DNA from: Saccharopolyspora phatthalungensis
GTDB taxonomy: Bacteria > Actinomycetota > Actinomycetes > Mycobacteriales > Pseudonocardiaceae
Reading direction: 5' to 3'
NCBI RefSeq assembly: GCF_014203395.1
Contig: NZ_JACHIW010000001.1
Coordinates: 1,488,001-1,552,000 of the forward strand
DNA length: 64,000 nt
The position numbers and the translations under genes are program-made. This document shows, in pieces, positions 22,206 through 62,937 of the stretch (position 1 is the stretch's first letter; each line of letters starts with the position of its first letter). Below the pieces are notes generated by a model. That model was given only the letters and a program-made list of their open reading frames with translations, searched no databases and was not told the origin of the DNA.

Positions 22206-23044
22206 AGCTGTCCTTCCACGGCCTTGGGCCGGGCCACCACGATCACCAGCAGCGCGACCACCACCAGCAGCAGCGACATCGCCACCGCGGCATCCACGTC
22301 GGACTGGGCCGTGGTGTAGATGGCCAACGGCAGGGTCCGGGTGGTGCCCTGCAGGCTACCGGCGAAGGTAATCGTCGCGCCGAATTCTCCCAGCGCCCGC
22401 GCGAAGGTCAGCACCAGACTCGACCCGAGGGCGGGCAGCAGCAGCGGCACGGTCACCCGCCGGAAGGCCAGCCACGGCCCGGCCCCCAGCGTCGCGGCAA
22501 CCTGCTCGTAGCGCCCGCCGGCGGTCCTCAGCGCACCTTCCAAGCCGACCACGAGGAACGGCATCGCGACGAACGTCTGCGCCAGCACCACGGCAGTCGT
22601 CGTGTACGGCAGGCGCAGTCCCGCGGCGTCGAGCCACTGTCCGATCGGTCCGGTGCGCCCCAGCAGGTAGAGCAGGGCAAGGCCGCCGACCACAGGCGGC
22701 AACACCAGCGGCAGCAACACCAATGCCCGCACCACGCGCAGACCGCGCATCCGCGATCTCGCCAGCACTAGCGCCAGCGGGCCACCCAGAACCAGGGCCA
22801 GTGCCGTGGAGATCAGGCCGGTGATCACCGAGAGCCACAGGGCGTCCAGCGCGGCAGGGCTGAGCAGCAGCTCCGGGAGCCGGGCCGGGTCGACGCGGGT
22901 CAGCAGGCCGAGGACCGGTAGGACCACGAGCGCCAGCGCGAGCACCGCTGGCGCCCACAGCACCGGCGGCACTCGGGAGGAGTGCGAATTCAATGGAAAT
23001 CGACGTGCTGATTTCCATTGAAATCGCGGTGGTCCAGCGGTCAC
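22202..23044 (-). CDS. modB: Molybdate ABC transporter permease ModB, with palindromic-repeat-encoded N-terminus
   Basis: The permease has five to six membrane helices from residue 27 on and the EAA-type loop RYEQVAATLGAGPWLAFRRV. The GTG at 23044 overlaps the modA stop (GTGA), which fixes the start and the coupling. Residues 6-20 (PRFQWKSARRFPLNS) are translated from the dispersed palindromic element at 22984-23027, so the cytoplasmic N-terminus carries a foreign peptide ahead of the first helix (VLWAPAVLALALVVLPVLGL). A later start would have to be inside or after the repeat; none has a better ribosome site. It forms the membrane channel for molybdate. Confidence 0.9.
   Translation of the reverse strand: MTAGPPRFQWKSARRFPLNSHSSRVPPVLWAPAVLALALVVLPVLGLLTRVDPARLPELLLSPAALDALWLSVITGLISTALALVLGGPLALVLARSRMRGLRVVRALVLLPLVLPPVVGGLALLYLLGRTGPIGQWLDAAGLRLPYTTTAVVLAQTFVAMPFLVVGLEGALRTAGGRYEQVAATLGAGPWLAFRRVTVPLLLPALGSSLVLTFARALGEFGATITFAGSLQGTTRTLPLAIYTTAQSDVDAAVAMSLLLVVVALLVIVVARPKAVEGQL
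22984..23027 (+). repeat. Dispersed palindromic element, copy 1 (inside modB)
   Basis: The left arm GCGAATTCAATGGAAAT (22984-23000) and right arm ATTTCCATTGAAATCGC (23011-23027) pair in 16 of 17 positions around the loop CGACGTGCTG. It begins 14 bases downstream of the modA stop on the minus strand and is read through as the ModB N-terminus. It belongs to a five-copy family in this window. Confidence 0.9.
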
Positions 23045-23796
23045 GGGGTGCCGAAGCCGTGCTTGGCGAGGACCTCGCGGCCCACCGGGCCGCGCACGAA
23101 CGCCATGAACTCCGCCGCAAGCTGCTTCTCCGGGGCGGCGTTGATCGTCGCGATCGGGTAGGTGTTGATGGCCTTCGCCGCCTCCGGGAAGTCGACCGCC
23201 TGCACCTGAGCCCCGGCCGCGCGCGCATCGGTGACGTACACCAGCCCGGCGTCCGCCTCGCCCGCAACGACCTTCTGCAGCACCGACTTGACGTCGTCCT
23301 CCTCGCTGACCGGCTTCAGCTGCGCGCCCGACGCCTGCGACACCTTCTGCGTGGCCGACCCGCACGGCACCTGCGGAGCACAGACCACCACGGTCCGGCC
23401 GGAAGCCGCGAGATCGGCGAGCGAGGCGATCTTGGCCGGGTTGCCCGGCGGGACCACGATGGTCAACTTGTTGGTCGCCAGCGTCTCCGAAGTGCCGACG
23501 AGATCCCGCACCTTGTCCATGTTCTTCGTGTCCGCCGAGGCGAAGACGTCCGCGGCCCGCCCCTGTTTGATCTGTTCGGCCAGCGTCGACGAACCCTGGT
23601 AGTCGAACTGCACATGCACATCCGGGTGCTGCTGGCTGAACCGGGTGCCGAGTTCGTTGAAGGACTCGGTGAGCGATGCCGCCGCGAGCACGGTCAGCAT
23701 GTGCTGCGGCTGGGATTGCGGCTGGGACTGCCCGCACCCGGCCAGCACCAAGAACGCGATCATCGCGCCAATGATCATCCTGAGCTTCGACATCAT
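23041..23796 (-). CDS. modA: Molybdate-binding lipoprotein ModA
   Basis: The 251-residue protein has a lipoprotein leader with lipobox LAGC (about residues 18-21), then VLAAASLTESFNELGTRF, the QFDYQGSSTLAEQIKQG motif and ADVFASADTKNMD, all typical of ModA oxyanion-binding proteins. The start is one of two adjacent ATGs at 23796 and 23793; the first gives an ATGA overlap with the regulator gene and GGGAGAAGG precedes both. It captures molybdate (and probably tungstate) outside the membrane and passes it to ModBC. Confidence 0.93.
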   Translation of the reverse strand: MMSKLRMIIGAMIAFLVLAGCGQSQPQSQPQHMLTVLAAASLTESFNELGTRFSQQHPDVHVQFDYQGSSTLAEQIKQGRAADVFASADTKNMDKVRDLVGTSETLATNKLTIVVPPGNPAKIASLADLAASGRTVVVCAPQVPCGSATQKVSQASGAQLKPVSEEDDVKSVLQKVVAGEADAGLVYVTDARAAGAQVQAVDFPEAAKAINTYPIATINAAPEKQLAAEFMAFVRGPVGREVLAKHGFGTP

Positions 23797-24194
23797 CCTT
23801 CTCCCGGCGTTTCCACCACGACGTTGGTCGACTTGACCACGGCTACCGCTAGCGCCCCGGGCTCCAACCCGAGTTCGCGCACCGCCTCGGTGCTCATCAG
23901 CGACACGATCCGGTGCGGGCCGCACTGCATCTCCACCTGCGACATGACCCGGTCCGAGATCACCTCGGTGACCAGCCCGACCAGTTTGTTGCGCGCCGAC
24001 CGGCCGATGCCGGACGGGTCGGGCGTCGAGCGGGCCTGGGCACGGGCGAACTCGGCCAGCGCGGCGCCGTCGACGATGCGCCGGCCGGCGGCATCCCGCT
24101 CCGAGGGCAGGTGCCCACCTTCGATCCACCGGCGCACCGTGTCATCGCTGACGCCAAGCAGTCCGGCGGCCTCTGAGATCCGATAGTGCGGCAC
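23793..24194 (-). CDS. Molybdate-sensing regulator: MerR-like helix-turn-helix plus TOBE (Mop) domain
   Basis: The 133-residue protein has an excisionase/MerR-type DNA-binding domain (residues 1-55: YRISEAAGLLGVSDDTVRRW with the wing GRRIVDGAALAEFARAQ). A single TOBE/Mop domain follows (68-130: ARNKLVGLVTEVISDRVMSQ then IVSLMSTEAVRELGLEPG and VVKSTNVVVE). Mop domains bind molybdate, so this is likely the molybdate-responsive switch of the operon. The GTG at 24194 gives the natural domain start. It is the first gene of regulator-modA-modB-modC, all joined by four-base overlaps, and is divergent from moaA. Confidence 0.87.
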   Translation of the reverse strand: MPHYRISEAAGLLGVSDDTVRRWIEGGHLPSERDAAGRRIVDGAALAEFARAQARSTPDPSGIGRSARNKLVGLVTEVISDRVMSQVEMQCGPHRIVSLMSTEAVRELGLEPGALAVAVVKSTNVVVETPGEG

Positions 24195-24342
24195 AGCCGG
24201 AACAATACTTCCGCAGTTGCGGGCAAAACCAGGGAATGCGTCCGCGAATCCGGATTGTTGCGCGTTTTCGTGCCGTTCTCCGAGCGCCCCGAAGGCCACC
24301 CGCACGATCGAAATTCCTGGCTGCGACACGTAGGGTCGTGGG

Positions 24343-25401
24343 GTGACCGCGGTGGACCTGGGAATCCCGCTCGTGCGCCGCACGATCGACATGTCCGCGC
24401 GTCCGGACACGCCCGCGCTGGTGGACCGGTTCGGTCGCGTGGCCACCGACTTGCGGGTCTCCCTTATCGACAAGTGCAATCTGCGCTGCACCTATTGCAT
24501 GCCCGCCGAGGGGCTGCCCTGGTTGAAACGCGCGGAATTGCTCGACACCGCCGAGATGAACCGGCTCATCCGCATCGCCGTCGAGGAGCTCGGCATCACC
24601 ACGGTGCGCTTCACCGGCGGCGAACCGCTGCTGCGCCAGGACCTGGTGGACATCATCGCGGCGACCGCGGCGCTGCCTTCCCGTCCGAAAACCTCGTTGA
24701 CTACCAACGGGATCAACCTCGGCAGCTTCGCCGAGCCGCTGGTGCGGGCCGGACTGAACCGGGTCAACGTCTCGCTGGACACCCTCGACCGCGAGGTGTT
24801 CAAGCAGCTCACCCGCCGCGACCGGCTTGACGGCGTGCTTGCCGGGCTCGCCGCCGCGAAGACGATGCGGCTGGAGCCGGTCAAGGTCAACGCGGTGCTG
24901 ATGCGCGGCATCAACGATCACGAGGCGCCCGGCCTGCTGGGGTACTGCATCGAGCGCGGCTACCAACTGCGGTTCATCGAGCAGATGCCGCTGGACGCAC
25001 AGCACGACTGGGACCGCGAGAAAATGATCACCGCCGAGGAGATCCTGGACCGGCTCAGCGCCCAGTTCACGCTCTCCCCGGACGTGGCCGAGCGGGGTTC
25101 AGCACCCGCCGAGCGCTGGCTGGTCGACGGCGGACCCGCCACCGTCGGCGTGATCGCCTCGGTGACCAGGCCGTTCTGCGCCGCCTGCGACCGGACCCGG
25201 CTCACCGCCGACGGTCAGCTGCGCTCGTGCCTGTTCTCGACGACCGAAACGGACCTGCGCGGGGCGATGCGCACCGGGGCGGACGACGCCGAACTGATCA
25301 GGTTGTGGCAGGAGACGATGTGGGCGAAGGCGGCCGGGCACGGGATGGACTCGGGCGAGTTCGCCCAGCCGGCGCGGCCGATGAGCGCCATTGGGGGTTG
25401 A
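24343..25401 (+). CDS. moaA: GTP 3',8-cyclase MoaA
   Basis: The 352-residue radical-SAM enzyme carries CNLRCTYC (Cys45, Cys49, Cys52) for the SAM [4Fe-4S] cluster. The second cluster motif PFCAACDRTRLTADGQLRSC binds GTP, and the C-terminal double glycine needed for activity is present. It catalyses the first step of molybdenum cofactor synthesis, together with MoaC. The GTG start lies divergent to the molybdate regulator. moaD follows four bases after its stop, so the pair is co-transcribed. Confidence 0.95.
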   Translation: MTAVDLGIPLVRRTIDMSARPDTPALVDRFGRVATDLRVSLIDKCNLRCTYCMPAEGLPWLKRAELLDTAEMNRLIRIAVEELGITTVRFTGGEPLLRQDLVDIIAATAALPSRPKTSLTTNGINLGSFAEPLVRAGLNRVNVSLDTLDREVFKQLTRRDRLDGVLAGLAAAKTMRLEPVKVNAVLMRGINDHEAPGLLGYCIERGYQLRFIEQMPLDAQHDWDREKMITAEEILDRLSAQFTLSPDVAERGSAPAERWLVDGGPATVGVIASVTRPFCAACDRTRLTADGQLRSCLFSTTETDLRGAMRTGADDAELIRLWQETMWAKAAGHGMDSGEFAQPARPMSAIGG

Positions 25402-25405
25402 GGGG

Positions 25406-25696: not shown

Positions 25697-26426
25697 ATCC
25701 CACCGTCGAGGCCCGTCGACGCGACACTGCATTACTGCGCGCGCGGGCGTGCGCGCGCACGCGAATACAACATTCGTCGGCGTGTCGTACACGCTCACTC
25801 GGGTGACATTTTGGTCCCCCCAAAGGCCGTGTCGATCTTGATTTTCGGCACGTGTCCTTCGAACAGACTAGAAGCCTCCGATCTAGCGACATAGATCACT
25901 ACTCTGCGTGCTGATGTGAATCCATCTCGCGACTTCTCGGACAACCGTTCGGGCCCACCTGGGGGACGATGACGAGGAGTCGGCGGGCGGGTAAACCACT
26001 GCGACGGGCGTTGCTCCGAGAGGACAACGAGGTGACCCACGCCTCACTGACGGTGATCGATATCGACGCGGAAACGACTTGGTAACGACGCTCTGATCAG
26101 CGCAAATAGGTCGGATCGGAGCACCCATTTCGGGCGTTACTGTGACGAGCGACACATATACAAAGATTTCCGATCTTCTCGTTGGTTACGTAGTGTCGCT
26201 CCTCGGTCGGCCCCGAACCGATCAGGAAGAAGCGGGAAGCTCGCAGCGCCGAACCCTGTCCGGCGGGCTTCCGACCCCCGAAACGAACACACCGGACAGG
26301 GGCGGGGGACCCAACCACCGGGCTCCCCGAAGCCCTAGGGGTGAAGCCGGTTCCCCGGAACCGGCCGGGCTGCCTCTCAGCCCGAACCCGACAGCTCACC
26401 TCGCAGGCGCGGCAGGAGAGAGGGAC
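25697..26426. other. 730-bp non-coding stretch ahead of the rpf gene
   Basis: No convincing gene is seen on either strand. The part from 25740 to 26180 is lower in GC than its surroundings (AATACAACATT, AGACTAGAAGCC, ACACATATACAAAG) and presumably carries promoters; it includes CGTTACTGTGACG, which resembles sites of envelope-stress response regulators but is too weak to call. From about 26238 to 26412 lies a cyclic-di-AMP riboswitch. Confidence 0.6.
26238..26412 (+). ncRNA. Cyclic di-AMP riboswitch (ydaO type) in the rpf leader
   Basis: The leader matches the actinobacterial ydaO/yuaA class in order: GCGCCGAACCCTGTCCGG, its pairing partner CCGGACAGGGGCGGGGGACC, GGGGTGAAGCCGGTTCC with CGGAACCGGCCGGGCTGCC, and the closing CTCAGCCCGAACCCGACAG then CTCACCTCGCAGGC. 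It ends about 15 bases before the start of a resuscitation-promoting-factor gene, the classic target of this switch in actinobacteria. Binding of c-di-AMP is expected to turn expression off. Bounds are approximate. Confidence 0.88.
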
Positions 26427-27062
26427 ATGGCTCGCTACCTAGGCAAGCACCGCAAATCGTCCAATGCCAGCCGCACCATCGCCCGCGTCGCCATCGCCGG
26501 CGCGGTGGTCGCCACCCCGATCGCAATCGCCGCCCCCGCCGCCAACGCGGCCCCGGACTGGGACAAGCTCGCCCAGTGCGAAAGCAGCGGCAACTGGAGC
26601 ATCAACACCGGCAACGGCTTCTCCGGCGGACTCCAGTTCACCCCGTCGACCTGGGCGGCCTACGGCGGCACCCAGTACGCCGGCAGCGCGCACCAGGCGA
26701 CGCGCGAGCAGCAGATCGCCGTCGCCGAGAAGGTCCTCGCTTCGCAGGGCTCCAACGCGTGGCCCGGCTGCACCGCCAAGCTCAACTGGACCAGCGGCGG
26801 CACCAAGGTCAGCATCAAGACCACCACGCCGAAGAAGGCCGAGACCAAGCCCGCGCCCAAGCCCAAGCCCAAGCCCAAGGCGACCCCCAGCAAGCCCGCG
26901 GTGAAGTCCAACGGCGCGGACTACACGGTCCAGCTCGGTGACACGCTGAGCAAGATCGGCGAGATGTTCGGCGTGAGCTACCAGGACATCGCTCACCGCA
27001 ACTCGGACATCATCCATGACCCGAACCTGATCTTTCCGGGCCAGCAGCTCGACATCAAATGA
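26427..27062 (+). CDS. Resuscitation-promoting factor (transglycosylase plus LysM)
   Basis: The 211-residue exported protein has a signal peptide ending around ANAA (residue 42). The Rpf transglycosylase domain follows (43-122: PDWDKLAQCESSGNWSINTG with catalytic Glu52, GGLQFTPSTWAAYGG and EQQIAVAEKVLASQG). Next come a Lys/Pro linker and a C-terminal LysM domain (about 165-210: YTVQLGDTLSKIGEMFGV to PNLIFPGQQLDI). It cleaves peptidoglycan and promotes growth resumption from dormancy or spores. The ATG at 26427 follows AGGAGAGAGGG. A c-di-AMP riboswitch controls it, and hairpins follow the stop. Confidence 0.93.
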   Translation: MARYLGKHRKSSNASRTIARVAIAGAVVATPIAIAAPAANAAPDWDKLAQCESSGNWSINTGNGFSGGLQFTPSTWAAYGGTQYAGSAHQATREQQIAVAEKVLASQGSNAWPGCTAKLNWTSGGTKVSIKTTTPKKAETKPAPKPKPKPKATPSKPAVKSNGADYTVQLGDTLSKIGEMFGVSYQDIAHRNSDIIHDPNLIFPGQQLDIK

Positions 27063-27067
27063 TCTGA

Positions 27068-27088
27068 CCGACCGGCTGGTCCGGTCGG
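27068..27088 (+). terminator. Hairpin directly after rpf
   Basis: A perfect 8-bp stem, CCGACCGG with CCGGTCGG, and a 5-base loop begin 5 bases after the rpf stop. A second hairpin (CGTGTCG with CGACACG) follows at 27098-27118. Together they probably end or protect the rpf message. Confidence 0.55.
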
Positions 27089-27141
27089 CAAGGAGTACGT
27101 GTCGTAACCCCCGACACGGCACGTGCTCCGCACCTCTCGGA

Positions 27142-30753: not shown

Positions 30754-31000
30754 GTCGTCCTCCTGTGCATTCCGGCTGCGGTGTACTTCCAGTTTGCCGG
30801 ATCCTGCCCCAGACCTCACCCAAGGGGGCGCGGCGAAACAAAACAAGTGCGACGCATCTCTCACCCGCGCGAAACGACCGAGAGGTCGCGCAAGCGACGA
30901 GCCACCCGGTCGCGGCGACGCCGACTCCAGCCAACGGCCACCCGCATCGCCGCGCGGAGACGACCTATTCGCCCGGGGGCGGCTGGGTATCGTGAGGGAG

Positions 31001-33253
31001 ATGTCATCACTCGCGGATTGGCTGCGGGCGCGCAGCGACGAACAGCTTGTCGCGCTGCTTCGCGCCCGGCCCGACCTCGCGACCCCGCCGCCCGCCGATA
31101 CCTCGGTGCTAGCGACGCGCGTTGGCGTGCGCTCGTCGGTCGCGCGGGCCTGCGAGGACCTCGACTCCTTCACCCTCGCCACACTCGAAGCGCTGGTGCT
31201 GCTCGACGCGGATGATGCGCCCGTGCCGCTGGACGCCGTTACCGAGTTGCTCGGCCGCGATGTCACGGTCGAACGCGCCCGCCGATCCGTCGCGCAGCTG
31301 CGCGATCTCGCGCTGACCTGGGGCGAGGACAGCGAGCTCGCCGTGGCTCCGGCGGCACGGGAGGCCTTGCCGACCTTCCCCGCCGGTCTCGGACGCGCCG
31401 CCGACCACCTCACCGGCGCGGCGGCGAAAGCGGCGTTGGCCGAGCTCGACAAGGAGGAGCGGCGGCTGGTCGACAAGCTCGCCGGGGGCGCGCCGATCGG
31501 GCGCACCAAGGACGCGGCCAAGCAGGTTCCGCTGGAGCAGGCGACTAATCCGGTGCAACGGCTGCTCGCGAAGGGGTTGCTGCTGCGGCGCGATGCCGAG
31601 ACCGTCGAGCTGCCGCGCCAGCTCGCCCTGGCCGTGCGCGGCGACCGGCCAATGGGCGCGGTCGAACCCGACGAGCCCGTACCGGATCTGACCGGCACCG
31701 ATCAGTCCACAGTAGACAAAACGGCGGGCGGCGAGGCGCTGGAGCTGCTGCGGCACGTGGAGGGTCTGCTGAACACCTGGGGCGAGGAGCCGCCCGACGT
31801 GCTGCGTTCCGGCGGCGTCGGGGTACGCGACCTGCGCCGCACCGCCAAGGCCATCGACGTCGACGAGAACCGGCTGGGTCTGCTCGTGGAACTCGCGACC
31901 GCGGCCAACCTGCTGGCCAGCAGCGACGGCGCGGCACCGCAGTGGGTCCCCACCATCGAGTCCGACACCTGGCTGGCCGCCCCGCCCGAACAGCGCTGGG
32001 CGACCCTGGCCCAAGCCTGGCTCGACCTGCCCCGGCTGCCCGGCCTGATCGGCGCCCGCGACGAGAAGGACCGGCTGCTCAACCCGCTCTCCGAAGACCT
32101 ACGCCGACCGCTCGCGCCGAAGGACCGCCGCCGCATCCTCGACTACCTCGACGAACTGCCCGGTGGCTACGGGGCCCGGCCGGACGACGTCGCCGCGGTC
32201 CTCGGGTGGCGTGCCCCGCGCCGCGGTGGGCGGCTTCGCGACGACCTGGTGCGCTGGACCCTCGCCGAAGCCACCACCCTCGGCATCGTCGCCCTGCACG
32301 CGATGACCACCGCCGGACGCGTCCTGCTCGCCGACGGATCGGCCGAAGCGGCCCGCCAACTCGCCCTTGCATTGCCCGAACCCCTGGACCACGTCCTTGT
32401 GCAGGCCGACCTCACCGTCGTCGCCCCGGGTCGCCTCGAACCCGAGCTCGCCATCGAGATGAAGCTCGTCGCGGACGTCGAATCCGCCGGTAGCGCCACC
32501 GTTTACCGGATCAGCGACGGCAGCATCCGACGCGCCCTCGATACCGGCTACACCGCCGACGACCTGCACGCGCTGTTCCGCACCCGCTCGCGCACCCCGG
32601 TCCCGCAGTCGTTGACCTACCTGATCGACGACGTCGCCCGCCGCCACGGCCTGCTCCGCGCGGGCACCGCCGCGGCCTTCCTGCGCTGCGACGACCCGCT
32701 GCTGCTGGCGGAAATCCTGGCCAAGCCGGAAACCGAGGAACTCGAACTCCGCCGCATCGCGCCCACCGTCCTGGTCAGCCCGCTGCCGCTGGCCGACGTA
32801 GTCGCCGAACTACGCGCCGCCGGATTCGCCCCGGTCGCCGAAGGCCCCGACGGCAACGTGCTTGACCTGCGGGAGAGCGGGCGGCGCGTGCGCGGCAAAA
32901 GCCGCCCTGCGCAGCCGGCGGCGATCGCCGCGCCGAGCGAGGAGCAGCTCGGCGAGCTCGTGGCGCACCTGCGAGCCGGCGACCGGGCCGGGGCGGCGCG
33001 GCGCGGCAGCACCGTGCGCCCCGAACGCGGGCGGCCGAGTGCCGAAGCGACGCTGCAGCTGCTGCGCGACGCGGCGCAACAGCGCCGGAGCGTGTGGTTG
33101 GGGTTCGTCGACACGCACGGAGTGCGCAGCCAGCGCGTGGTGCGGCCGGTGAGCGTCGGCGGCGGGATCCTGCAGGGCTTCGACCCCAGCAGCGAAGAGC
33201 TGGGCAACTTCCCCTTGCACCGCATCATGTCCGTCGCCCTCGTCGAGGACTGA
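31001..33253 (+). CDS. Helicase-associated/WYL domain protein (Rv0862c-like)
   Basis: The 750-residue protein begins MSSLADWLRARSDEQLVALL, a winged-helix-rich region. In the middle it has an XPB-associated segment (HVLVQADLTVVAPGRLEPEL, SAGSATVYRISDGSIRRALD, GYTADDLHALF, RTPVPQSLTYLIDDVARRHG), and it ends with a WYL-like fold (SVWLGFVDTHGVRSQRVVRP, then FPLHRIMSVALVED). No Walker motifs are visible, so it is not a helicase itself. In mycobacteria the similar gene lies directly beside the XPB helicase; here XPB is 19 kb away. A role in nucleic-acid repair or regulation is inferred. The ATG follows GAGGGAG. A palindromic element begins at the last base of its stop codon. Confidence 0.8.
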   Translation: MSSLADWLRARSDEQLVALLRARPDLATPPPADTSVLATRVGVRSSVARACEDLDSFTLATLEALVLLDADDAPVPLDAVTELLGRDVTVERARRSVAQLRDLALTWGEDSELAVAPAAREALPTFPAGLGRAADHLTGAAAKAALAELDKEERRLVDKLAGGAPIGRTKDAAKQVPLEQATNPVQRLLAKGLLLRRDAETVELPRQLALAVRGDRPMGAVEPDEPVPDLTGTDQSTVDKTAGGEALELLRHVEGLLNTWGEEPPDVLRSGGVGVRDLRRTAKAIDVDENRLGLLVELATAANLLASSDGAAPQWVPTIESDTWLAAPPEQRWATLAQAWLDLPRLPGLIGARDEKDRLLNPLSEDLRRPLAPKDRRRILDYLDELPGGYGARPDDVAAVLGWRAPRRGGRLRDDLVRWTLAEATTLGIVALHAMTTAGRVLLADGSAEAARQLALALPEPLDHVLVQADLTVVAPGRLEPELAIEMKLVADVESAGSATVYRISDGSIRRALDTGYTADDLHALFRTRSRTPVPQSLTYLIDDVARRHGLLRAGTAAAFLRCDDPLLLAEILAKPETEELELRRIAPTVLVSPLPLADVVAELRAAGFAPVAEGPDGNVLDLRESGRRVRGKSRPAQPAAIAAPSEEQLGELVAHLRAGDRAGAARRGSTVRPERGRPSAEATLQLLRDAAQQRRSVWLGFVDTHGVRSQRVVRPVSVGGGILQGFDPSSEELGNFPLHRIMSVALVED

Positions 33254-33298
33254 GCGATTTCAAGGGAAATCGGCAGGTTGATTTCCCTTGAAATCGCT
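33253..33298 (+). repeat. Dispersed palindromic element, copy 2
   Basis: This is the best-preserved copy: arms AGCGATTTCAAGGGAAAT (33253-33270) and ATTTCCCTTGAAATCGCT (33281-33298) are perfectly complementary over 18 bp around CGGCAGGTTG. Its first base is the last base of the TGA stop at 33251-33253, and the convergent cvnD gene ends 7 bases beyond it, so it fills the whole gap between two 3' ends. Confidence 0.92.
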
Positions 33299-33305: not shown

Positions 33306-33902
33306 TCAGTGGGCGGCGGCCAAGCGTTGGCGCATGGCGTGTTCCACCAAGGTGATCAGGGCCTGCTTGGTGGACTCCCGGTTCCGGGCGTCGCAGGTGA
33401 TCATCGGCACCGAGGCCGAGATGGTCAGCGCTTCCCGGATGTCCTCCTGCCGGTGGTGCAGCACGCCGTCGAACGTGTTCACCGCGATGATGTAGGGCAG
33501 GCCCCGGTCATCGAAGAAGTCGATCGAGGCGAACGCGTCGGCCAACCGCCGGGTGTCGACCAGCACCACCGCGCCGATCGCGCCGCGCACCAGGTCGTCC
33601 CACATGAACCAGAACCGGTGCTGGCCGGGAGTGCCGAACAGGTACAGGATCAGGTCCGAGTCCAGCGAGACCCGGCCGAAGTCCATCGCCACCGTGGTGG
33701 TGACCTTGCCCGGCGTAGCGCTGAGGTCATCGACCCCGACGCTGGCCTCGGTCATGACCGCCTCGGTGGTCAACGGCACGATCTCGGAGACCGAACCGAC
33801 GAACGTCGTCTTGCCGACCCCGAAGCCACCGGCGACCACGATCTTCGTCGAGGTCTTCTGGTGGCCCGCATTCGCTCGGGGATCAGAGCCTGCGAAGCCC
33901 AC
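33306..33902 (-). CDS. Conservon GTPase CvnD
   Basis: The 198-residue Ras/MglA-like GTPase has the P-loop GGFGVGKTTFVGSVSE, a Thr switch region, the G3 equivalent LYLFGTPGQHRFWFMWDDLV, and the G4-like AVNTFDGVLH. It is the fourth gene of the cvnA-B-C-D signalling cassette. The GTG at 33902 lies inside the 3' end of cvnC (20-base overlap) with AAGGGTG before it, showing coupling. In Streptomyces conservons the four proteins form a membrane-associated complex like eukaryotic G-protein modules. A palindromic element follows its stop. Confidence 0.9.
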   Translation of the reverse strand: MGFAGSDPRANAGHQKTSTKIVVAGGFGVGKTTFVGSVSEIVPLTTEAVMTEASVGVDDLSATPGKVTTTVAMDFGRVSLDSDLILYLFGTPGQHRFWFMWDDLVRGAIGAVVLVDTRRLADAFASIDFFDDRGLPYIIAVNTFDGVLHHRQEDIREALTISASVPMITCDARNRESTKQALITLVEHAMRQRLAAAH

Positions 33903-43075: not shown

Positions 43076-43954
43076 ATGACCGAAACCAAGACCATGCTCG
43101 AGGTCTCCGGGCTCGGCCACCGCTACGGCGGCGAGGGCCACCTGGCCATCGCCGACCTGACGTTCCAGGTGCGTATCGGCGAACTGGCCTGCATCGTCGG
43201 CCCATCCGGCTGCGGCAAGTCCACCCTGCTGCGCTCGATCTCCGGGCTGATCAAGCCGACCAGCGGCGATATCCGCTTGCACGGCGGCGCCGTGCAGGGC
43301 GTGCCGACCGACCTGGCCGTGGTGTTCCAGGACTACAGCCGGTCGCTGTTCCCGTGGCTGTCGGTGCGGTCCAACGTCGAATTCCCTTTGCGCTCCAGGG
43401 GATTGAGCAAGGCCGGACGGCGCGGCCGGGCCGACGAGGTGCTGGAGTGGGTGGGCCTGAGCGCCGCCGCGAAGAAGTACCCATGGCAGCTCTCCGGCGG
43501 CATGCAGCAGCGGGTGTCGATCGCCCGCGCGCTGGCCTGCCGACCGGCGCTGCTGCTGATGGACGAGCCGTTCGCCTCGGTCGACGCCCAGACCCGCTTC
43601 GAGCTGGAAGACCTGCTGCTTCGGGTCCGCAAGCAGTTCGACAGCACGGTCCTGCTGGTCACCCACGACATCGACGAGAGCATCTACCTCGCGGACCGGG
43701 TGTTCGTGCTGTCGAAGTCGCCGGCGAACATCGTGGCGGACCTGGCGATCCCGCTCGGCGACGTTCGCGATCAGATCACCACCCGCGAGTCGGAGACCTT
43801 CGTCCAGCTGCGCAGCGAGGTCGCCCGCCTCCTCGACGTGGGGCGGTTTCAGGGGAAGTCGACGGGGGAATTTCCATTGAAATCAACGATCTCCGGCGCG
43901 TCGCATCACGACGGGGCCGGCGGATTAGCGGGACCTCAATCGAAATCGCCCTAG
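43076..43954 (+). CDS. ABC transporter ATP-binding protein (SsuB/TauB type) with palindromic-element-encoded tail
   Basis: The 292-residue protein has Walker A GPSGCGKSTLL (about 41-51), Q-loop VFQDYSRSLFPW, signature LSGGMQQRVSIARAL, Walker B LLLMDEPFASVD and the H-loop THDIDES. Family members normally end near EVARLLDV. Here about 35 extra residues follow, beginning RFQGKSTGEFPLKS, encoded by the degenerate palindromic element at 43843-43887. The stop TAG shares the tetramer CTAG with the stop of the convergent decarboxylase. It energises the importer encoded upstream. Confidence 0.88.
   Translation: MTETKTMLEVSGLGHRYGGEGHLAIADLTFQVRIGELACIVGPSGCGKSTLLRSISGLIKPTSGDIRLHGGAVQGVPTDLAVVFQDYSRSLFPWLSVRSNVEFPLRSRGLSKAGRRGRADEVLEWVGLSAAAKKYPWQLSGGMQQRVSIARALACRPALLLMDEPFASVDAQTRFELEDLLLRVRKQFDSTVLLVTHDIDESIYLADRVFVLSKSPANIVADLAIPLGDVRDQITTRESETFVQLRSEVARLLDVGRFQGKSTGEFPLKSTISGASHHDGAGGLAGPQSKSP
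43843..43887 (+). repeat. Dispersed palindromic element, copy 3 (degenerate, inside the ATPase gene)
   Basis: The left arm reads GCGGTTTCAGGGGAAGT (43843-43859), the loop CGACGGGGGA, and the right arm ATTTCCATTGAAATC (43870-43884). Compared with copy 2 the arms carry several changes. A further half-copy, TCAATCGAAATCGCC, lies at 43936-43950 just before the stop. It encodes the C-terminal extension of the ATP-binding protein. Confidence 0.75.
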
Positions 43955-53748: not shown

Positions 53749-54342
53749 ATGGCCACCGAACAGGAACGCGCGGCGATGGGCGGCGCGCACCGGTTCATCG
53801 GACTCGCGGAAAGCCTCGAACGCCACGCCGGCGCGCCGACCGGGGCCGAACCCCCGAACGTGCATGGCACCAATCGCGGTTACGGGCTGGTGTTCTTCCA
53901 CCAGGAGCAGTACCACCTGACGACGGTGATCAGCACCGGGCTGCGCTTCCAGCCGCTGGGGGCCGAGCCCGCCCAGGAGCTCGCCTGCACGGTCTACAAG
54001 GAGCAGACCGAAGCCGCCCGGCACCTGGTCGACCTCACCGCCGAGTTGCTGGTGCAGCATCGCACCTACCTGGTGCCGGACCAGATCGTGCCGAACAAGA
54101 AGCCGCTGCTGCCGGGCACCGAGTTCCACGGGGTGCTGGCCTCCGGCCACCCGCTGTTCCCGCCCGAGTTCACCAGGTTCACCGATCCCGACGGGGTGGA
54201 GCAGCTCCAGGTGTTCACGCTGCTGCCGGTCACCCTAGGTGAGCTGAACTTCATCCTCGACAACGGCGTCACCGCATTGCGCCAGCAGTGGGCCCGATTC
54301 GAGGTGGACGTGTTCGACCTCGGTCGCCCGAGCGTGGTGTAG
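53749..54342 (+). CDS. Suppressor-of-fused (SUFU) domain protein
   Basis: The 197-residue protein has the SUFU-like pattern: LVFFHQEQYHLTTVISTGLR, QELACTVYKEQTEAARHLVD, the GTEFHGVLASGHPLFPPEF core, and LQVFTLLPVTLGELNFILDN near the C-terminus. SUFU domains in bacteria occur in stand-alone cytosolic proteins and in polymorphic-toxin immunity. The ATG at 53749 has GGAG at proper spacing; earlier in-frame starts lack it. A palindromic element begins two bases after the stop. Function here is unknown. Confidence 0.72.
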   Translation: MATEQERAAMGGAHRFIGLAESLERHAGAPTGAEPPNVHGTNRGYGLVFFHQEQYHLTTVISTGLRFQPLGAEPAQELACTVYKEQTEAARHLVDLTAELLVQHRTYLVPDQIVPNKKPLLPGTEFHGVLASGHPLFPPEFTRFTDPDGVEQLQVFTLLPVTLGELNFILDNGVTALRQQWARFEVDVFDLGRPSVV

Positions 54343-54343
54343 A

Positions 54344-54388
54344 GCGATTTCAATGGGAAATCGACGTGCCGATTTCCCTTGAAATCGC
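54344..54388 (+). repeat. Dispersed palindromic element, copy 4
   Basis: The arms GCGATTTCAATGGGAAAT (54344-54361) and ATTTCCCTTGAAATCGC (54372-54388) pair around CGACGTGCCG with one extra base on the left side. It starts two bases after the TAG of the SUFU-domain gene and ends 31 bases before the menC start, within a 77-base gap. Confidence 0.9.
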
Positions 54389-54419
54389 CGTCGCGACGGC
54401 GGACTGAAAGGATCAGACC

Positions 54420-55403: not shown

Positions 55404-55434
55404 CGCGGCCTAGGACGTGCGTGCTCGCCGGTGT

Positions 55435-57360: not shown

Positions 57361-59789
57361 CGGTTACCTCCCTGGGTGTCCATCGAGCCGAGTCCACCGC
57401 CGGCCTCCGGCGCGATGACGTCACTTTCGCGAGCACCGGTCACTGCCCGCCACACCCGTTGCGGCGAGCACGGCATCTCCACGTCATTGACGCCCATCGG
57501 CCGCAGGGCGTCCACGACCGCGTTCACCACCGCCGGAGTCGAGGCGATGGTGCCCGCCTCGCCGACCCCCTTGACGCCCAACGGATTCGACGTCGCGCGG
57601 GTTTCGGTGCGGTCGGTGACGAAATCCGGCAGATCGACGGCCGACGGCACCAGGTAGTCGGCCAGCGTCCCGGTCGTGAGCGTGCCGGTTTCGTCGTAGA
57701 CGGCCTCCTCGAACAGCGCCTGCGCGATGCCTTGCGCCAACCCGCCGTGCACCTGGCCTTCCACGATCAGCGGGTTGACCACGCTGCCGATGTCGTCCAC
57801 GCAGACGTATTTGCGGATCTGGACCCGCCCGGTCTCGGTGTCCACTTCGGTCGCGCACAGGTGGGTGCCGTGCGGGAAGGAGAAGTTGTCCGGGTCGAAC
57901 GTCGCGTCGGCGTCCAGGTTCGGCTCCACCCCGTCCGGCAGATCGTGCGCGGCGAAGGCGGCGAGCGCCACCTCGGCCAGCGCGGTGGCCCGGTCGGTGC
58001 CGCGGACCCCGAATCGCCCCGAGACGAACTCCACATCGTCCTCGGCGCATTCCAGCAAGTGCGCGGCGATTTTCTTGGCCTTCTCCACGACCTTGTCGGC
58101 CGCGTTGACCACCGCCATGCCGCCGACGGTCAGCGACCGCGACCCGTAGGTGTCCATGCCCTTGGGCGCGACCTGCGTATCGCCGTGCAGCACTTCGACG
58201 TCCTCGAACGGGACACCGAGCCGGTCGGCCACGATCTGGCTCCACGCCGTCTCATGCCCCTGCCCGTGCGGCGAGGTCCCCGTGACGACCTCAACCTTCC
58301 CGGTCGGCAGCACCCGGATCGAGGCGTGTTCCCAGCCGCCCGCGCCGTAGGACAGCGAGCCCAGCACGCGCGACGGGGCCAGCCCGCACATTTCGGTGAA
58401 CGTCGAGATGCCGATGCCCAGCTGGACCGGATCGCCCGAGCGGCGCCGTTCCTCCTGTTCCTCGCGCAATGCCTGGTAGCCGAACAGTTCCATGGCCTTG
58501 TCGGTGGCGGCCTCGTAGTTGCCGGAGTCGTAGGTCAGGCCGGCGACCGTGTTGTACGGGAACTCTTCGTGCCCGATCCAGTTCTTGCGCCGCACCTCCA
58601 TCGCGTCCATGCCGAGTTCGTTGGCGAGCTCGTCCATCATCCGCTCGATGGCGAACGTGGCCTCCGGCCGGCCGGCCCCGCGGTAGGCGTCGGTGGGCGT
58701 CTTGTTGGTGAACACGTTGGTGCAGCTGAAGTGGTACGCCGGGATCTTGTAGATCGCGTTGAACATGAACGCGCCCAGGATCGGGATGCCCGGCGTGACC
58801 AGCCGCAGGTAGGCGCCCATGTCGGCGAGCAGCTCGACCCTCAGCCCGGTGATCTTGCCATCCCGGGTCGCCGACATCGACAGCTTCTGGATCTGGTCGC
58901 GGCCGTGGTGCGCGGAGACCATCGTCTCGGACCGGGATTCGGTCCACTTCACCGGCCGTTCGAGCTTGCGGGCCAGCACGAAGGCGATGAACTCCTCCGG
59001 TGTCACCTGGAGCTTGCCGCCGAACCCGCCGCCCACGTCCGGCGCGATGACCCGGATCTTCTGCTCCGGCACGCCGAGCGACATCGCCAGCATCAGCCGC
59101 AGGATGTGCGGCACCTGGGTGGCCGACCACATGGTGATCTGCTCACCGGTCGGGTCGACGACCACCGATCGCGGTTCCATGAACGCCGGGATCAGCCGCT
59201 GCTGCCGGAAGGTCCGGTCGATGCGCACTTCGGCGCTGCCCAGCGCCTGCTCGACATCGCCGCCGGTGCCCGCCTCGGCCGAGTCGAACGTCCAGGTCGC
59301 GTTGCGGTTGGTGCCCAGATCGTCGTGCACCAACGGCGAATCCGCCCGCAACGCCGATTCCATATCGAGCACCACCGGCAGGTCCTCGTAGTCGATGTCG
59401 ATGGCGTCCAGCGCGTCGCGCGCTTCGGCCGCGCTGCGCGCCGCGACCACCGCGACCGCTTCTCCGGCGAAGCGAACCGTGTCCACCGCCATCGGCGGTG
59501 CCGCCGGTGCCTTCATGTCCTCGGTGATCGGCCACGCACAAGGCAGGCTGCCTTGCTCGTCGGCGATGTCCCTACCGGTGATCACCGCCGCGACACCGGA
59601 CATCCGGCGCGCCTCGTCGGTGTTGATCGACGTGATCCGGGCGTGTGCGACCGGGCTGCGCAGGATCGCCAGGTGCAGTGTGCCCGCGGGCGTCAGGTTG
59701 TCGGTCCAGCGGGTGCGGCCGGTGATCAGCCGCGCGTCTTCCTTGCGCTTGCGGGAACGCCCGAGTTCGGGTTCCAGGACCGATGTCAT
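57357..59789 (-). CDS. coxL: Form II CO-dehydrogenase-like large (molybdenum) subunit CoxL
   Basis: The 810-residue molybdopterin-cytosine-dinucleotide subunit carries AYRGAGR at residues 368-374. That loop defines form II (putative) CO dehydrogenases; form I enzymes have AYxCSFR with the Cys that binds copper. The catalytic glutamate region GVKGVGEAGTIAS is present near the C-terminus, as are the cofactor loops APDVGGGFGGKLQ and GTSPHGQGHETAW. Form II enzymes have uncertain activity: CO oxidation is disputed and other aldehyde/purine-type substrates are possible. It depends on the molybdenum genes at 21-29 kb. The ATG overlaps the coxS stop (ATGA). Confidence 0.93.
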   Translation of the reverse strand: MTSVLEPELGRSRKRKEDARLITGRTRWTDNLTPAGTLHLAILRSPVAHARITSINTDEARRMSGVAAVITGRDIADEQGSLPCAWPITEDMKAPAAPPMAVDTVRFAGEAVAVVAARSAAEARDALDAIDIDYEDLPVVLDMESALRADSPLVHDDLGTNRNATWTFDSAEAGTGGDVEQALGSAEVRIDRTFRQQRLIPAFMEPRSVVVDPTGEQITMWSATQVPHILRLMLAMSLGVPEQKIRVIAPDVGGGFGGKLQVTPEEFIAFVLARKLERPVKWTESRSETMVSAHHGRDQIQKLSMSATRDGKITGLRVELLADMGAYLRLVTPGIPILGAFMFNAIYKIPAYHFSCTNVFTNKTPTDAYRGAGRPEATFAIERMMDELANELGMDAMEVRRKNWIGHEEFPYNTVAGLTYDSGNYEAATDKAMELFGYQALREEQEERRRSGDPVQLGIGISTFTEMCGLAPSRVLGSLSYGAGGWEHASIRVLPTGKVEVVTGTSPHGQGHETAWSQIVADRLGVPFEDVEVLHGDTQVAPKGMDTYGSRSLTVGGMAVVNAADKVVEKAKKIAAHLLECAEDDVEFVSGRFGVRGTDRATALAEVALAAFAAHDLPDGVEPNLDADATFDPDNFSFPHGTHLCATEVDTETGRVQIRKYVCVDDIGSVVNPLIVEGQVHGGLAQGIAQALFEEAVYDETGTLTTGTLADYLVPSAVDLPDFVTDRTETRATSNPLGVKGVGEAGTIASTPAVVNAVVDALRPMGVNDVEMPCSPQRVWRAVTGARESDVIAPEAGGGLGSMDTQGGNR

Positions 59790-60367
59790 GACTGCCGACC
59801 TCCCGTCGCCTTCGTCTCGACCTGCGCGTCACCGGGCGTTCGCGGGCTCGGAGCCTGGGACTGTGTTCCTTCGGAGGTCTGCTCCGCGGCAGGACCGGCG
59901 CCCGGCTGCATGCGCTCGGCCGCGTCGCGGACCGCGCGGACGATGTTCTGGTAGCCGGTGCAGCGGCAGAGGTTGCCCTCCATCCCCTCCCGGATCTGCT
60001 GGTCGTCGGGCTGGTGCACCTCGGCGAGCAGGTCCAGCGCCTGCATGATCATCCCCGGGGTGCAGTACCCGCACTGCAAAGCGTGGTTGTCGTGGAACGC
60101 CTGCTGCAAGGGGTGCAGCTGGCCGTTTTGGGCGAGCCCCTCGATGGTAGTGACGTCGTGCCCGTCGGCCTGCACCGCAAGCACCGAGCACGACTTCACG
60201 CTGTGCCCGTCCAGGTGGACGGTGCACGCGCCGCAGTTGCTGGTATCGCAACCGACGACCGTGCCGACTTTGCCGAGACGTTCGCGGAGATACTGGACGA
60301 GCAGCAGGCGCGGCTCGACCTCATCGGTGTATTGGGTGCCGTCGACGTGGACGGTGATGCGCGGCAT
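59786..60367 (-). CDS. coxS: CO-dehydrogenase-type iron-sulfur subunit (CoxS)
   Basis: The 193-residue protein has two [2Fe-2S] clusters: plant-ferredoxin type (CDTSNCGACTVHLDG, with an upstream Cys) and the second set (CGYCTPG and GNLCRCTGYQNIV). A disordered Pro/Gln-rich tail of about 35 residues follows the domain and is longer than in most CoxS proteins. GAGGAGG precedes the ATG. It relays electrons from the molybdenum centre to CoxM. Confidence 0.94.
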   Translation of the reverse strand: MPRITVHVDGTQYTDEVEPRLLLVQYLRERLGKVGTVVGCDTSNCGACTVHLDGHSVKSCSVLAVQADGHDVTTIEGLAQNGQLHPLQQAFHDNHALQCGYCTPGMIMQALDLLAEVHQPDDQQIREGMEGNLCRCTGYQNIVRAVRDAAERMQPGAGPAAEQTSEGTQSQAPSPRTPGDAQVETKATGGRQS

Positions 60368-60494
60368 TTGGGCGGCCTCCTCAGAGGAACTGGCCCGCGG
60401 TGCGCGGACGAGCTGGAACAGACTGCACCGTCTAGGTGACGGGCGTCACTTCGTGAGCCTGCTACTTCGATCGACCGCGGGCAACCCACGCTCA

Positions 60495-61610
60495 CTAGTG
60501 ATGGTGGATCGGTCCCTCGATTTCGGAAAGCCGCACGCCGCGGCCGCCCCACCGCAGGGCGATCAGCTCAGCCGCGATGGACACCGCGGTCTCCTCCGGA
60601 GTCCGGGCACCCAGGTCCAGACCGATCGGCGAGGACAACCTGGCCAGCTCGTTGTCGGTCAAGCCCTGCTCGCGCAGCCGCCGCAGCCGGTCGTCGTGGG
60701 TGCGCCGGGAACCCATCGCGCCGACGTAGCCGACGTTGCGCCGCAACGCCGCCTCCAGCACCGGCACGTCGAACTTCGGGTCGTGGGTGAGGACCATGAT
60801 CGCGGTCCGCCCGTCCAGCCGCCCGGCCTCCGCCTCGGCCATCAGGTAGCGGTGTGGCCAGTCCACCACCACGTCGTCGACGCCGGGGAACCGGCTGTGC
60901 GTGGCGAAGACCGGGCGCGCGTCGCAGACCGTGACCCGGTAGCCGAGGAAGGCGCCCATCCTGGCCATCGCCGCGGCGAAGTCGATCGCGCCGAACACCA
61001 GCATCCGGGGCGGCGGTTCGAAGGAGTTCACGAACACCCGCAGCCCTTCGCCACGACGCTGTCCCTCCGGGCCGTACTCGATGACGCCGCTGCGGCCGCT
61101 GGCCAGCATGCCGCGCGCGTCGTCGATCACCGCGTCGTCGATCCGCGCCGAGCCGAGGCCGCCGCTGGTGCGCTCGCGCCACACCAGCAGATGCGAGCCG
61201 ACCTTCGCGGCATCGGGGTGTTCCAGGACGGTGGCGATCGCGACCGGCTCCTCCGCGCGAACCGACGTGGCGACCACGTCGAGCTCCGGGAAGGTCTCGC
61301 GATCCACTCGCTCTACGAAGACGTCGAGGATCCCGCCGCAGGTCAGACCCACTGCGAAGGCGTCGTCGTCGCTGACGCCGTAGCGGCGCAGGACCGGCTC
61401 TGAGCCCTCCAGCACGCCGGTCGCCTCCTCGTAGACCGCGCCCTCGACACACCCGCCGGACACGCTGCCGACGGCCTCGCCGCCCTCGGTCACCAGCATC
61501 GAGGCCCCGGGCGGTCGCGGCGCCGACCGGAACGTCGCGACCACGGTGCCCAGTCCGATGGCCTCGCCCGCCTCCCACCGCTTGGTCAACTCGTCCAGCA
61601 CGTCACGCAC
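60495..61610 (-). CDS. XdhC/CoxF-type maturation protein
   Basis: The 371-residue protein has the XdhC N-terminal motif FRSAPRPPGASMLVTEGGEA and GSVSGGCVEGAVYEEA. A C-terminal Rossmann-type domain follows (MLVFGAIDFAAAMARMGAFL, VLTHDPKFDVPVLEAALRRN, YVGAMGSRRTHDDRL). Proteins of this family insert or sulfurate the molybdenum cofactor of hydroxylases such as the CoxL enzyme downstream. The GTG at 61610 has GGAGG six bases before it; an ATG further upstream would lack a site. It lies 127 bases from coxS. Confidence 0.9.
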   Translation of the reverse strand: MRDVLDELTKRWEAGEAIGLGTVVATFRSAPRPPGASMLVTEGGEAVGSVSGGCVEGAVYEEATGVLEGSEPVLRRYGVSDDDAFAVGLTCGGILDVFVERVDRETFPELDVVATSVRAEEPVAIATVLEHPDAAKVGSHLLVWRERTSGGLGSARIDDAVIDDARGMLASGRSGVIEYGPEGQRRGEGLRVFVNSFEPPPRMLVFGAIDFAAAMARMGAFLGYRVTVCDARPVFATHSRFPGVDDVVVDWPHRYLMAEAEAGRLDGRTAIMVLTHDPKFDVPVLEAALRRNVGYVGAMGSRRTHDDRLRRLREQGLTDNELARLSSPIGLDLGARTPEETAVSIAAELIALRWGGRGVRLSEIEGPIHHH

Positions 61611-61727
61611 AGCGCACCTCCGCTTACTCGACGCCTCCCGGCGCTGCGCCAGTTCCGCTTGAGTCGCGTTGGACGTCGGCAATGCCTGGAAACTGACACG
61701 TCTTCCTCCGGTTCCGGGTAGTCGGCC

Positions 61728-62858
61728 TCAGGCCGCACCCACCGGTTCGTACCCGGGCTGGGACAACCGGCGCACCCACGACCACACGTCCTCCAGGGAG
61801 CGCAGGCTGTGCCCGGCCACCATTCGGTCAACGTGCGGCATGGCCGCCACAATTCCGGATTGCACCGGCTGGTATCCGTCATGCCCGGCATGTGGATTCG
61901 CCCAGATCACCGCGCGGGCCAGCCGCCGCAACCGCCGCATCTGCTCGGCGAGCTCCGCCGAGTCGCCGCGCTCCCAGCCATCGGAGAACAACACGACCAC
62001 CGAACCCCGCGCGACCCCCCGCTGCCCCCACCTGTCCAAGAACACCCGGAGCGTCTCGCCGAGCCTGGTGCCACCCGAAAAGTCCGGCACGGCCCGGGAA
62101 GCCGCCAACAACGCCGCTTCCGGATCGCGCTGCCGGAGCTGCCTGCTCACCCGCGTCATGCGGGTGCCCAGGGTGAAGACCTCGGTGCTGGCCGGCGATC
62201 GCCGCACCGCGACGTGCGCGAACCGGAGCAGCGCGTCGGCGTACGGGCTCATCGAACCCGAGACGTCGATCAACAGCACCACCCGGCGGGGCCGACGAGA
62301 ACGCCGCTGCCGCGGCAACCGCATCGGCTCACCGCCGGCGCGCAGCAGCTCGCGAAGCGTCGCGCGCGGGCTGAGCGTTCCGCGCTTGCTGCGGCGATGC
62401 CGCAGCGCGGGGCGCGTCGGCGGCTCCGGACGCAGCACCGCGAGCATGCGCCGCAGGTGCTCGCGCTCCGCCACACCGAGCTCCGCGAGGTCGCGTCGCC
62501 GGAGCACCTCCGCGTCGCTCGCAGCAGCGGCGAGCGGCTTGTCCGCGTCGCCGTCGCCCGCGCCGTCCGCAGCGGAAAGCGCGGCGATCCGCGCCGGACG
62601 CGGCAGCGGACGCCCCGGCGACTCGGTGGGCAGGACCGCGACGCCAAACCAGGAGTCGAAGGCCGCGTCGTAGCGCGCGACATCATCCGGTTCGGAGCAC
62701 AGCGTTAGGCGGCCGGCCCAGTAGACCGCGGAGCGGTCGTCAAGGCCGACGTGCTCGGTGGCGGCGAGGAATGCCTGGACGCGAGTGGGGCCGCAGGCCA
62801 TCCCGGAGTGCCGCAGGGCGCGGGCGAACCCGACCAGCCCGGTCACGGTGTGCTCCAT
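61728..62858 (-). CDS. VWA-domain protein (CoxE-like)
   Basis: The 376-residue protein carries a von Willebrand type A domain with MIDAS motif VLLIDVSGSMSPYADALL (Asp198, Ser200, Ser202) and FSGGTRLGETL. The N-terminal half is helical and rich in Arg/Asp/Glu. CoxE proteins work with the MoxR ATPase CoxD to assemble the active site of molybdenum hydroxylases. MoxR is encoded directly upstream with a palindromic element between. The start is ATG at 62858. MIDAS residues are complete. Confidence 0.9.
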   Translation of the reverse strand: MEHTVTGLVGFARALRHSGMACGPTRVQAFLAATEHVGLDDRSAVYWAGRLTLCSEPDDVARYDAAFDSWFGVAVLPTESPGRPLPRPARIAALSAADGAGDGDADKPLAAAASDAEVLRRRDLAELGVAEREHLRRMLAVLRPEPPTRPALRHRRSKRGTLSPRATLRELLRAGGEPMRLPRQRRSRRPRRVVLLIDVSGSMSPYADALLRFAHVAVRRSPASTEVFTLGTRMTRVSRQLRQRDPEAALLAASRAVPDFSGGTRLGETLRVFLDRWGQRGVARGSVVVLFSDGWERGDSAELAEQMRRLRRLARAVIWANPHAGHDGYQPVQSGIVAAMPHVDRMVAGHSLRSLEDVWSWVRRLSQPGYEPVGAA

Positions 62859-62891
62859 CGGCCCCCTCCTGAACCTTCGGTGTCGCTGGGC

Positions 62892-62937
62892 GGCGACTTC
62901 AAGGGAAATCGACGCGCTGATTTCCCTGGAAATCGCC
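62892..62937 (+). repeat. Dispersed palindromic element, copy 5 (encodes the MoxR C-terminus)
   Basis: The arms GGCGACTTCAAGGGAAAT (62892-62909) and ATTTCCCTGGAAATCGCC (62920-62937) pair at 16 of 18 positions around CGACGCGCTG. On the minus strand it is translated as GDFQGNQRVDFP and supplies the stop of the MoxR gene (62899-62901). Confidence 0.9.

Follow-up and report, generated by a model that had tools for sequence, protein, structure and literature searches.

We analyzed a 64,000-nucleotide stretch of the Saccharopolyspora phatthalungensis genome (positions 1,488,001 to 1,552,000 of contig NZ_JACHIW010000001.1, assembly GCF_014203395.1), hereafter called the window, that contains five copies of a short palindromic element. 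A first-pass annotation of the window had noticed these copies and had proposed, among other possibilities, a small mobile palindrome of the repetitive extragenic palindrome (REP) or miniature inverted-repeat transposable element (MITE) type. By copy number, position, and occurrence in relatives, the palindromes indeed form a REP-like family whose dispersed copies lie mostly at the 3′ ends of genes; the part of the proposal that concerned mobility fared less well, for reasons given below. All five copies are present at the places annotated, as follows.

Copy 1: 22983..23028, strand unassigned; between two minus-strand genes: 23041-23796 (solute-binding protein), whose stop codon it follows, and 22202-22972 (ABC permease), which comes next.
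Copy 2: 33253..33298, strand unassigned; abuts the TGA of 30992-33253 (Helicase_C_3 protein) and precedes the stop codon of the convergent gene 33306-33902 (ATP_bind_1).
Copy 3: 43842..43887, strand unassigned; a decayed copy; the frame of 43076-43954 (ABC transporter ATPase) runs on through it close to the C-terminus.
Copy 4: 54343..54389, strand unassigned; immediately 3′ of the stop codon of 53749-54342 (SUFU-domain protein), with one additional base in an arm.
Copy 5: 62892..62937, strand unassigned; the minus-strand gene 62899-63816 (AAA ATPase) takes its TGA stop codon and final residues from this copy.

When scored against a profile of the element, the five copies are dyads of 46 to 47 bp with 19-bp arms and a short center. 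The palindromic arms described earlier are therefore real, but the center has 8 bases (9 by profile in copy 4) rather than forming a 10-base loop. Copy 2 is a perfect palindrome, as had been stated, its arms matching fully over 19 bp. The arms are more AT-rich than the window, although at 46% GC versus 69% the difference is milder than the 41% originally given. The species consensus reads GGCGATTTCAATGGAAATC-RRCGCGYY-GATTTCCATTGAAATCGCC, and a single arm is itself a near-palindrome, GATTTC-N4-GAAATC. Because the center is quasi-symmetric (RRCGCGYY), the claim that its orientation is the same in all copies fails genome-wide: the 73 aligned copies from this genome comprise 21 with CGDG, 9 with CHCG, 30 with symmetric CGCG, and 13 others. 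Asymmetric centers nonetheless show a weak plus-strand bias on the contigs (21 CGDG versus 9 CHCG, binomial p = 0.04), and some copies (for example, at loci L023, L027, and L062) have a longer center. Folded as RNA, copies 1, 2, 4, and 5 are predicted to reach −25.0 to −32.2 kcal/mol (z −5.7 to −9.0) and the decayed copy 3 −13.7 kcal/mol (z −1.9); the tail of the protein that hosts copy 3 differs from that in relatives. An Rfam scan of the window at the gathering score revealed no family at the elements, the sole match being a c-di-AMP (cyclic di-AMP) riboswitch (RF00379, 57.7 bits, 26280-26425, plus strand) that precedes the predicted gene 26427-27062.

The repetition is beyond chance, as had been claimed, and it extends far past the five copies. 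In the window, the half-site GATTTCAANGGAAATC with up to 3 mismatches is matched 18 times versus 0.26 expected from 100 shuffles. In the 8.54-Mb genome, the full pattern gives 67 forward and 65 reverse matches with none for a reversed-pattern control, and a stricter core, GGAAATC-n-GATTTCC, occurs at 57 places, likewise with a control of zero. A covariance model run on both strands returns at least 150 matches (150 candidates were scored). By profile, at least 96 copies are distinct in the sequence examined, which consists of the window, 3-kb loci, and sixty 10-kb stretches of this genome; because this count comes from part of the genome sequence, the real number is probably above 96. Elements on small contigs (L053 on C6 and L090 on C5) have flanks that are 85-95% identical to one another and about 88% identical to those of a copy on contig C2 (L062), and these shared flanks are a duplication that took the element along.

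The 96 copies are concentrated at gene ends. A stop codon lies inside or within 20 nt of 67 copies, compared with 8.2% for random intergenic 46-mers and 4.8% for any random 46-mer. In spacers between tandem genes (n = 44), 27 copies lie within 20 nt past the stop codon and only 5 within 20 nt ahead of the next start, where 11.7 would be expected in each case. Convergent genes flank 23 of the 96 copies and divergent genes 6, and several of the convergent spacers that hold an element are only 50-62 bp long, barely exceeding the element itself. In 17 cases a predicted gene stops within the element or only just beyond it, and 10 of these ends coincide with element position 39, the site of the arm's TGA. 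Overlap with predicted genes is 12 nt or less for 75 of the 96 copies; three copies reside within genes and one near a start.

We surveyed the element among other genomes, naming S. hirsuta (G004), S. kobensis (G002), S. elongata (G018), and S. spinosa (G005) by species and the remainder by our own identifiers (S. phatthalungensis itself being G000). The core GGAAATC-GATTTCC is found in 15 of 22 Saccharopolyspora genomes, at 2 to 134 places each, in none of 15 genomes of the family outside this genus, and once or twice in each of 4 among 24 genomes from other families; the reversed control of this core matches once each in G012, G027, and G031. A 38-base pattern matches at least 120 stretches, and every one of the 80 listed with titles belongs to Saccharopolyspora, with S. 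hirsuta, S. kobensis, S. elongata, S. indica, S. oryzae, and S. spinosa among the matches listed. A scan of the named genomes for the exact 46-mer gave no match. Among the matches listed, the centers vary by species, being of RGACGTCY types in G014 and of GGACCTTC or AGAGCTCT types in S. elongata. Both the genome survey and the matches listed for the 38-base pattern place the double form almost entirely within Saccharopolyspora. Some other genera contain single units of the form GCGATTTC-N4-GAAATCGC, and a wider pattern has 10-19 matches in 5 of 8 genomes of one genus (g41); the simple hairpin type is therefore more widely spread than the double form.

Other small palindromes were encountered in the course of these comparisons. 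Short palindromes of 20-22 bp and GCGATTTCGCGCGAAATCGC type are present in G246, G093, and genus g41, and likewise at Saccharopolyspora gene ends (regions L144 and L147 of G008 and S. elongata). Another type, with CGTGAGTGCTTTG-like arms around CTATA, occurs at gene ends of relatives, namely the junction orthologous to 43076|43951 in G008 and S. hirsuta and that orthologous to 54420|55435 in G014.

The gene junctions of the window were then compared with those of eight relatives. Three of the five copies (1, 4, and 5) lie at junctions that are filled in related species too. The junction of copy 1 holds an element in G006, S. elongata, S. hirsuta, and G014; G008 has one short palindrome there, and G015 lacks an element. 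That of copy 4 holds an element in G006, S. elongata, and S. spinosa, a relic recognized by eye in G008, and none in G015, S. hirsuta, or G014. At the junction of copy 5, an element lies past the stop codon in G006 and S. elongata, is shortened in S. spinosa, and is missing from S. hirsuta; the protein ends ahead of the element in five relatives (with AP in four and TAER in S. hirsuta), whereas in S. phatthalungensis the element itself ends the frame. In 15 other genomes of the genus, the neighbor gene of copy 2 again lies within 500 bp; no such element is present in 12 of these, and the remaining three carry a composite (G014 and S. kobensis) or units of different sequence (G012). Conversely, junction 59786|60495 is empty in S. 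phatthalungensis and has an element in G006 and S. elongata, a decayed one in S. spinosa, and a relic, again by eye, in G008.

A pair of close species was also compared. Across 200 kb, G014 and S. kobensis are 96.4% identical in aligned blocks, and all 13 of the G014 copies in this interval have an S. kobensis copy at the orthologous place, one of them decayed. An additional S. kobensis copy, beside the first of the 13, lacks a G014 counterpart, and one further copy lies past the aligned end. Judged from these alignments, the copies are not mainly fresh insertions, and since junctions without an element exist, gain or loss takes place as well. The comparison of orthologous loci suggested in the first-pass annotation thus speaks in part against mobility, in that many sites are shared, even though element-free counterparts are found.

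The same pair of genomes reveals that both arms of an element can change together. Where the two genomes have orthologous copies, 61 of 617 core positions differ, as do 377 of 5827 positions in the 250-bp flanks (a count that takes in neighboring elements), so that the core is just ~1.5 times as changed as its flanks. At three loci, AATGG/CCATT in one species corresponds to AATTG/CAATT in the other, with both arms switched. Two further loci have AATTG on both sides in S. kobensis and AATGG on both sides, hence a mispaired arm, in G014; at one locus the left arm alone differs. The exact AATTG form is present at 50 places in S. kobensis, 25 in G014, and one in G012, and is absent from the 19 other genomes, while AATGG/CCATT occurs at 103 places in G014, 96 in S. 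elongata, 70 in S. hirsuta, 56 in S. kobensis, and 50 in G006. This restriction of AATTG to few genomes favors its spread from copy to copy. Alternatively, the arms may have changed by template switching within the arms, a process suggested by the general behavior of inverted repeats, or through selection.

We favor, with a probability of roughly 55%, a reading in which the five palindromes belong to a REP-like family of two-way gene-end hairpins that is independent of RAYT (REP-associated tyrosine transposase) genes and is a genus-level feature of Saccharopolyspora, the function being predicted. A transcript running in from either side would fold into a hairpin of 19 bp and so demarcate the end of the gene, serving as a transcription boundary, as protection of the mRNA 3′ end, or as both, and the element would provide TGA stop codons on both strands. 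Copies would be kept alike by homogenization, through inter-copy exchange or template switching at inverted repeats, and not by frequent RAYT-driven transposition. The gene-end position speaks for such a role; in addition, copies often nearly fill the convergent spacer and many persist in place through speciation. Also in favor of this reading are the copy number, the predicted hairpins of four window copies, the distribution of the core within the family, and the insertions at palindrome halves described below. Paired arm changes support it too: in an alignment of 69 copies, 89.6% of cells pair and two-sided changes affect 9 of 20 arm pairs, with 71 such cells versus 32.5 when shuffled, a comparison that leaves relatedness among the copies in place. 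(The alignment drew on 43 of 45 elements from relatives and on 26 copies of S. phatthalungensis: 23 of 25 that had been sampled at random, plus three from the window, whose copies 3 and 4 were omitted, as was L107.)

Several observations weigh against this reading. No U-tract follows the elements: on 97 transcribed sides, the downstream sequence averages 1.6 T per 10 nt, which equals background, with five or more T in 1 side and TTT in 4. A terminator of the U-tract kind was rejected on these grounds. Nor is there a preference for G·U over A·C on the transcribed strand, with 24 versus 18 in the arms and 30 versus 27 in the center among the 73 of 96 copies that have an 8-base center and score 45 or more; selection on the RNA strand, sought through this preference, therefore gave no signal. 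Moreover, 29 of the 96 copies lie away from any predicted stop codon, and gene calls were made with a purpose-built codon-usage gene finder on stretches picked for holding elements, so that the background for placement depends on the elements. Finally, the core is absent from 7 of the 22 genomes of the genus and the element is thus dispensable. The earlier suggestion of an mRNA 3′-end element agrees with the gene-end position, but the missing G·U preference and U-tracts argue against a plain intrinsic terminator.

The sequence data fit an RNA hairpin and a DNA dyad alike. We rank the gene-end hairpin first; a DNA-binding site and a MITE that still moves follow, each given the same odds. The former of these two, which we consider unlikely, holds that the whole dyad or the arm GATTTC-N4-GAAATC is a candidate DNA site for a chromosome-organizing or replication protein, that gene ends are merely the least harmful places for it, and that DnaA boxes found in composite elements are part of its role. 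The equal frequency of G·U and A·C on the transcribed strand would fit such a site, as would the center, which keeps purine then pyrimidine without pairing covariation. In relatives, composites consist of two palindromes flanking a hairpin GGCGTGTCG-n-CGACACGCC, and the nonamer TTGTCCACA lies 8-9 bp past the palindrome in S. elongata, G006, S. spinosa, and G008, sometimes repeated at 28-30 bp. In PMC4285127, this nonamer is given as the DnaA box with high affinity in M. tuberculosis and S. coelicolor. It is found within 120 bp of an element in 13 of 21 cases in relatives (0.36 expected) but in only 1 of 11 in S. phatthalungensis (0.32 expected), and DnaA is therefore not a full account of the window copies. 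The composite core, TTGTCCACAN{0,30}GGCGTGTCG and mostly TTGTCCACAGnnnnCGGCGTGTCG, matches 44 times in S. elongata, 26 in G013, 24 in G006, 22 in S. spinosa, and 8 in G008, with low counts of 3 in S. kobensis, 2 each in S. hirsuta and G014, and 1 in G019. By contrast, S. phatthalungensis, whose elements are mostly single copies, has no match, like 12 other genomes of the genus. The arm sequence also varies between species, which counts against this reading. The composite element had no match in plasmid and phage collections.

We offer as a tentative and rather doubtful reading that palindromes fixed at orthologous gene ends may have been rewritten in place by RAYT-free copy-to-copy homogenization, with AATTG replacing AATGG in both arms at many sites in one lineage. 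Pairing around DnaA boxes in sister species would then link gene-end hairpins to DnaA binding.

The second rival, a MITE or REP still mobilized by some other transposase, in which the species-specific centers and outer arms represent separate bursts, is in our estimation no more probable than the DNA site. It would explain the swing in copy number from 0 to 134 places per genome of the genus, the element-free junctions, the species-specific centers, and the identical spacer that many composite cores of G013 and S. spinosa contain. However, the four identical S. spinosa composites that were aligned are carried on a larger repeat with inverted ends of its own, so that for these four the larger repeat, and not a burst of the composite, would explain the identity. 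(This repeat, at L167, L176, L182, and L187, is ~600-700 bp long and ends in CAGGGCGTGTGCAAGGTTGACCT / AGATCAACCTTGCACACGCCCTG, with the palindrome composite as a passenger.) The orthology of all 13 G014 copies in S. kobensis, with just one S. kobensis copy lacking a G014 counterpart, likewise speaks against ongoing mobility. Among 79 copies examined in five registers, no flank matches of 8-9 bp and no 5-mers were recovered, and one 6-mer; shorter flank matches exceed shuffling in one register each (13 versus 5.9 at 2 bp, 3 versus 0.4 at 4 bp). A helper transposase had also been proposed as a mark of mobility. The Y1_Tnp domain (PF01797) of RAYT-type proteins has no match in S. phatthalungensis, G014, S. 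hirsuta, or S. kobensis, all of which are element-rich, although Y1_Tnp genes are found in 9 of the 22 genomes of the genus, among them the element-rich G006, S. elongata, and G013. A RAYT-driven REP is thus unsupported in the four element-rich genomes without the domain. Classical REP or MITE mobility is unsupported because there is no RAYT-type gene in S. phatthalungensis, no target duplication of 5-9 bp, and residence mostly at orthologous sites.

A mobile element does use the palindromes as targets. In four copies of this genome, one arm is interrupted by related sequence that proved to be an insertion sequence (IS) whose 286-aa transposase is of the DDE_Tnp_4 type; from this Pfam domain, we would file the IS in the IS5 family. 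A BLAST search of the genome with this IS gave 13 pieces, assembled as six insertions and three fragments. Five of the six insertions adjoin palindrome halves on both sides and the sixth on one side; one of the three fragments also adjoins a palindrome. The insertion point is fixed within the palindrome arm. An end of the IS type, AGGATGAAAAACGCTCA, adjoins palindromes in G008, and a similar end is present in G006. The IS is a guest of the palindrome and not its parent. One IS copy lies at L097:3905-5031; four insertions have a second left end back to back (a form 82% identical), making a longer composite. Targeting of REPs is known for the IS3, IS110, IS4, IS256, and IS5 families, according to a passage of PMC1525189.

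Ordinary terminators of independent origin that resemble one another by constraint would account for the gene-end position, the hairpin energy, and the single GCGATTTC-N4-GAAATCGC units in other genera, but AT-rich arms (46% versus 69% GC), the missing U-tract, near-identity over 36-46 bp at unrelated loci, and near restriction of the double form to one genus make this highly improbable.

Most of what is known about REP-like repeats comes from Gram-negative bacteria, and they are usually attributed to RAYT transposases. Like REPs, bacterial interspersed mosaic elements (BIMEs), and REP doublets forming hairpins (REPINs), the element is a short, high-copy extragenic palindrome at gene 3′ ends, and at 46 bp and at least 96 copies it falls within REP size (21-65 nt by a passage of PMC1525189) and copy number. 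Relatives have inverse-arm pairs around a spacer, as in BIMEs and REPINs, whereas S. phatthalungensis has no composite core, and the element resembles REPs also as an IS target. It differs from REPs in having no GTAG/CGTC foot (the feet are GGCG/CGCC here and of CCGC/GCGG or ACGC/GCGT type in alignments of relatives), in the four genomes without Y1_Tnp, in its dyad-symmetric center, and in its actinobacterial host. The IS resembles REP-inserting ISs such as IS1397, IS621, and ISPsy8 in entering the palindrome at a constant position but uses a different palindrome. MITEs are similarly small, noncoding, and repeated with inverted ends, but here the whole element is one inverted repeat and no 5-9 bp target duplication accompanies it. 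As with intrinsic terminators, a stable hairpin lies directly past stop codons and between convergent genes; however, there is no U-tract, the sequence is common to many loci, and no Rfam family is found at the elements. By copy number, position, and IS targeting, the family behaves like a REP, but the GTAG/CGTC foot and a RAYT gene are not found in this genome.

The main text of PMC3733652, which treats GTAG/CGTC palindromes, lacks the words Saccharopolyspora, actinobacteri, and Streptomyces in the portion available, and the available text of PMC2267715 likewise lacks Saccharopolyspora. Searching the open literature by the letters of the arms returned only an unrelated chicken paper. Searching it by words gave no such Saccharopolyspora repeat among the titles seen, which are a small part of the matches from a corpus that mostly excludes subscription papers.

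These palindromes represent REP-like placement and copy number in genomes free of RAYT-type genes, within a genus that produces antibiotics and insecticides and includes S. spinosa, S. hirsuta, S. kobensis, and others. Their long residence at orthologous sites and the concerted change of their arms make it testable whether gene-end function or homogenization by exchange maintains them. If transcripts end at the elements, they would offer ready two-way gene-end parts for engineering the genus, and either way they flag insertion hot spots.

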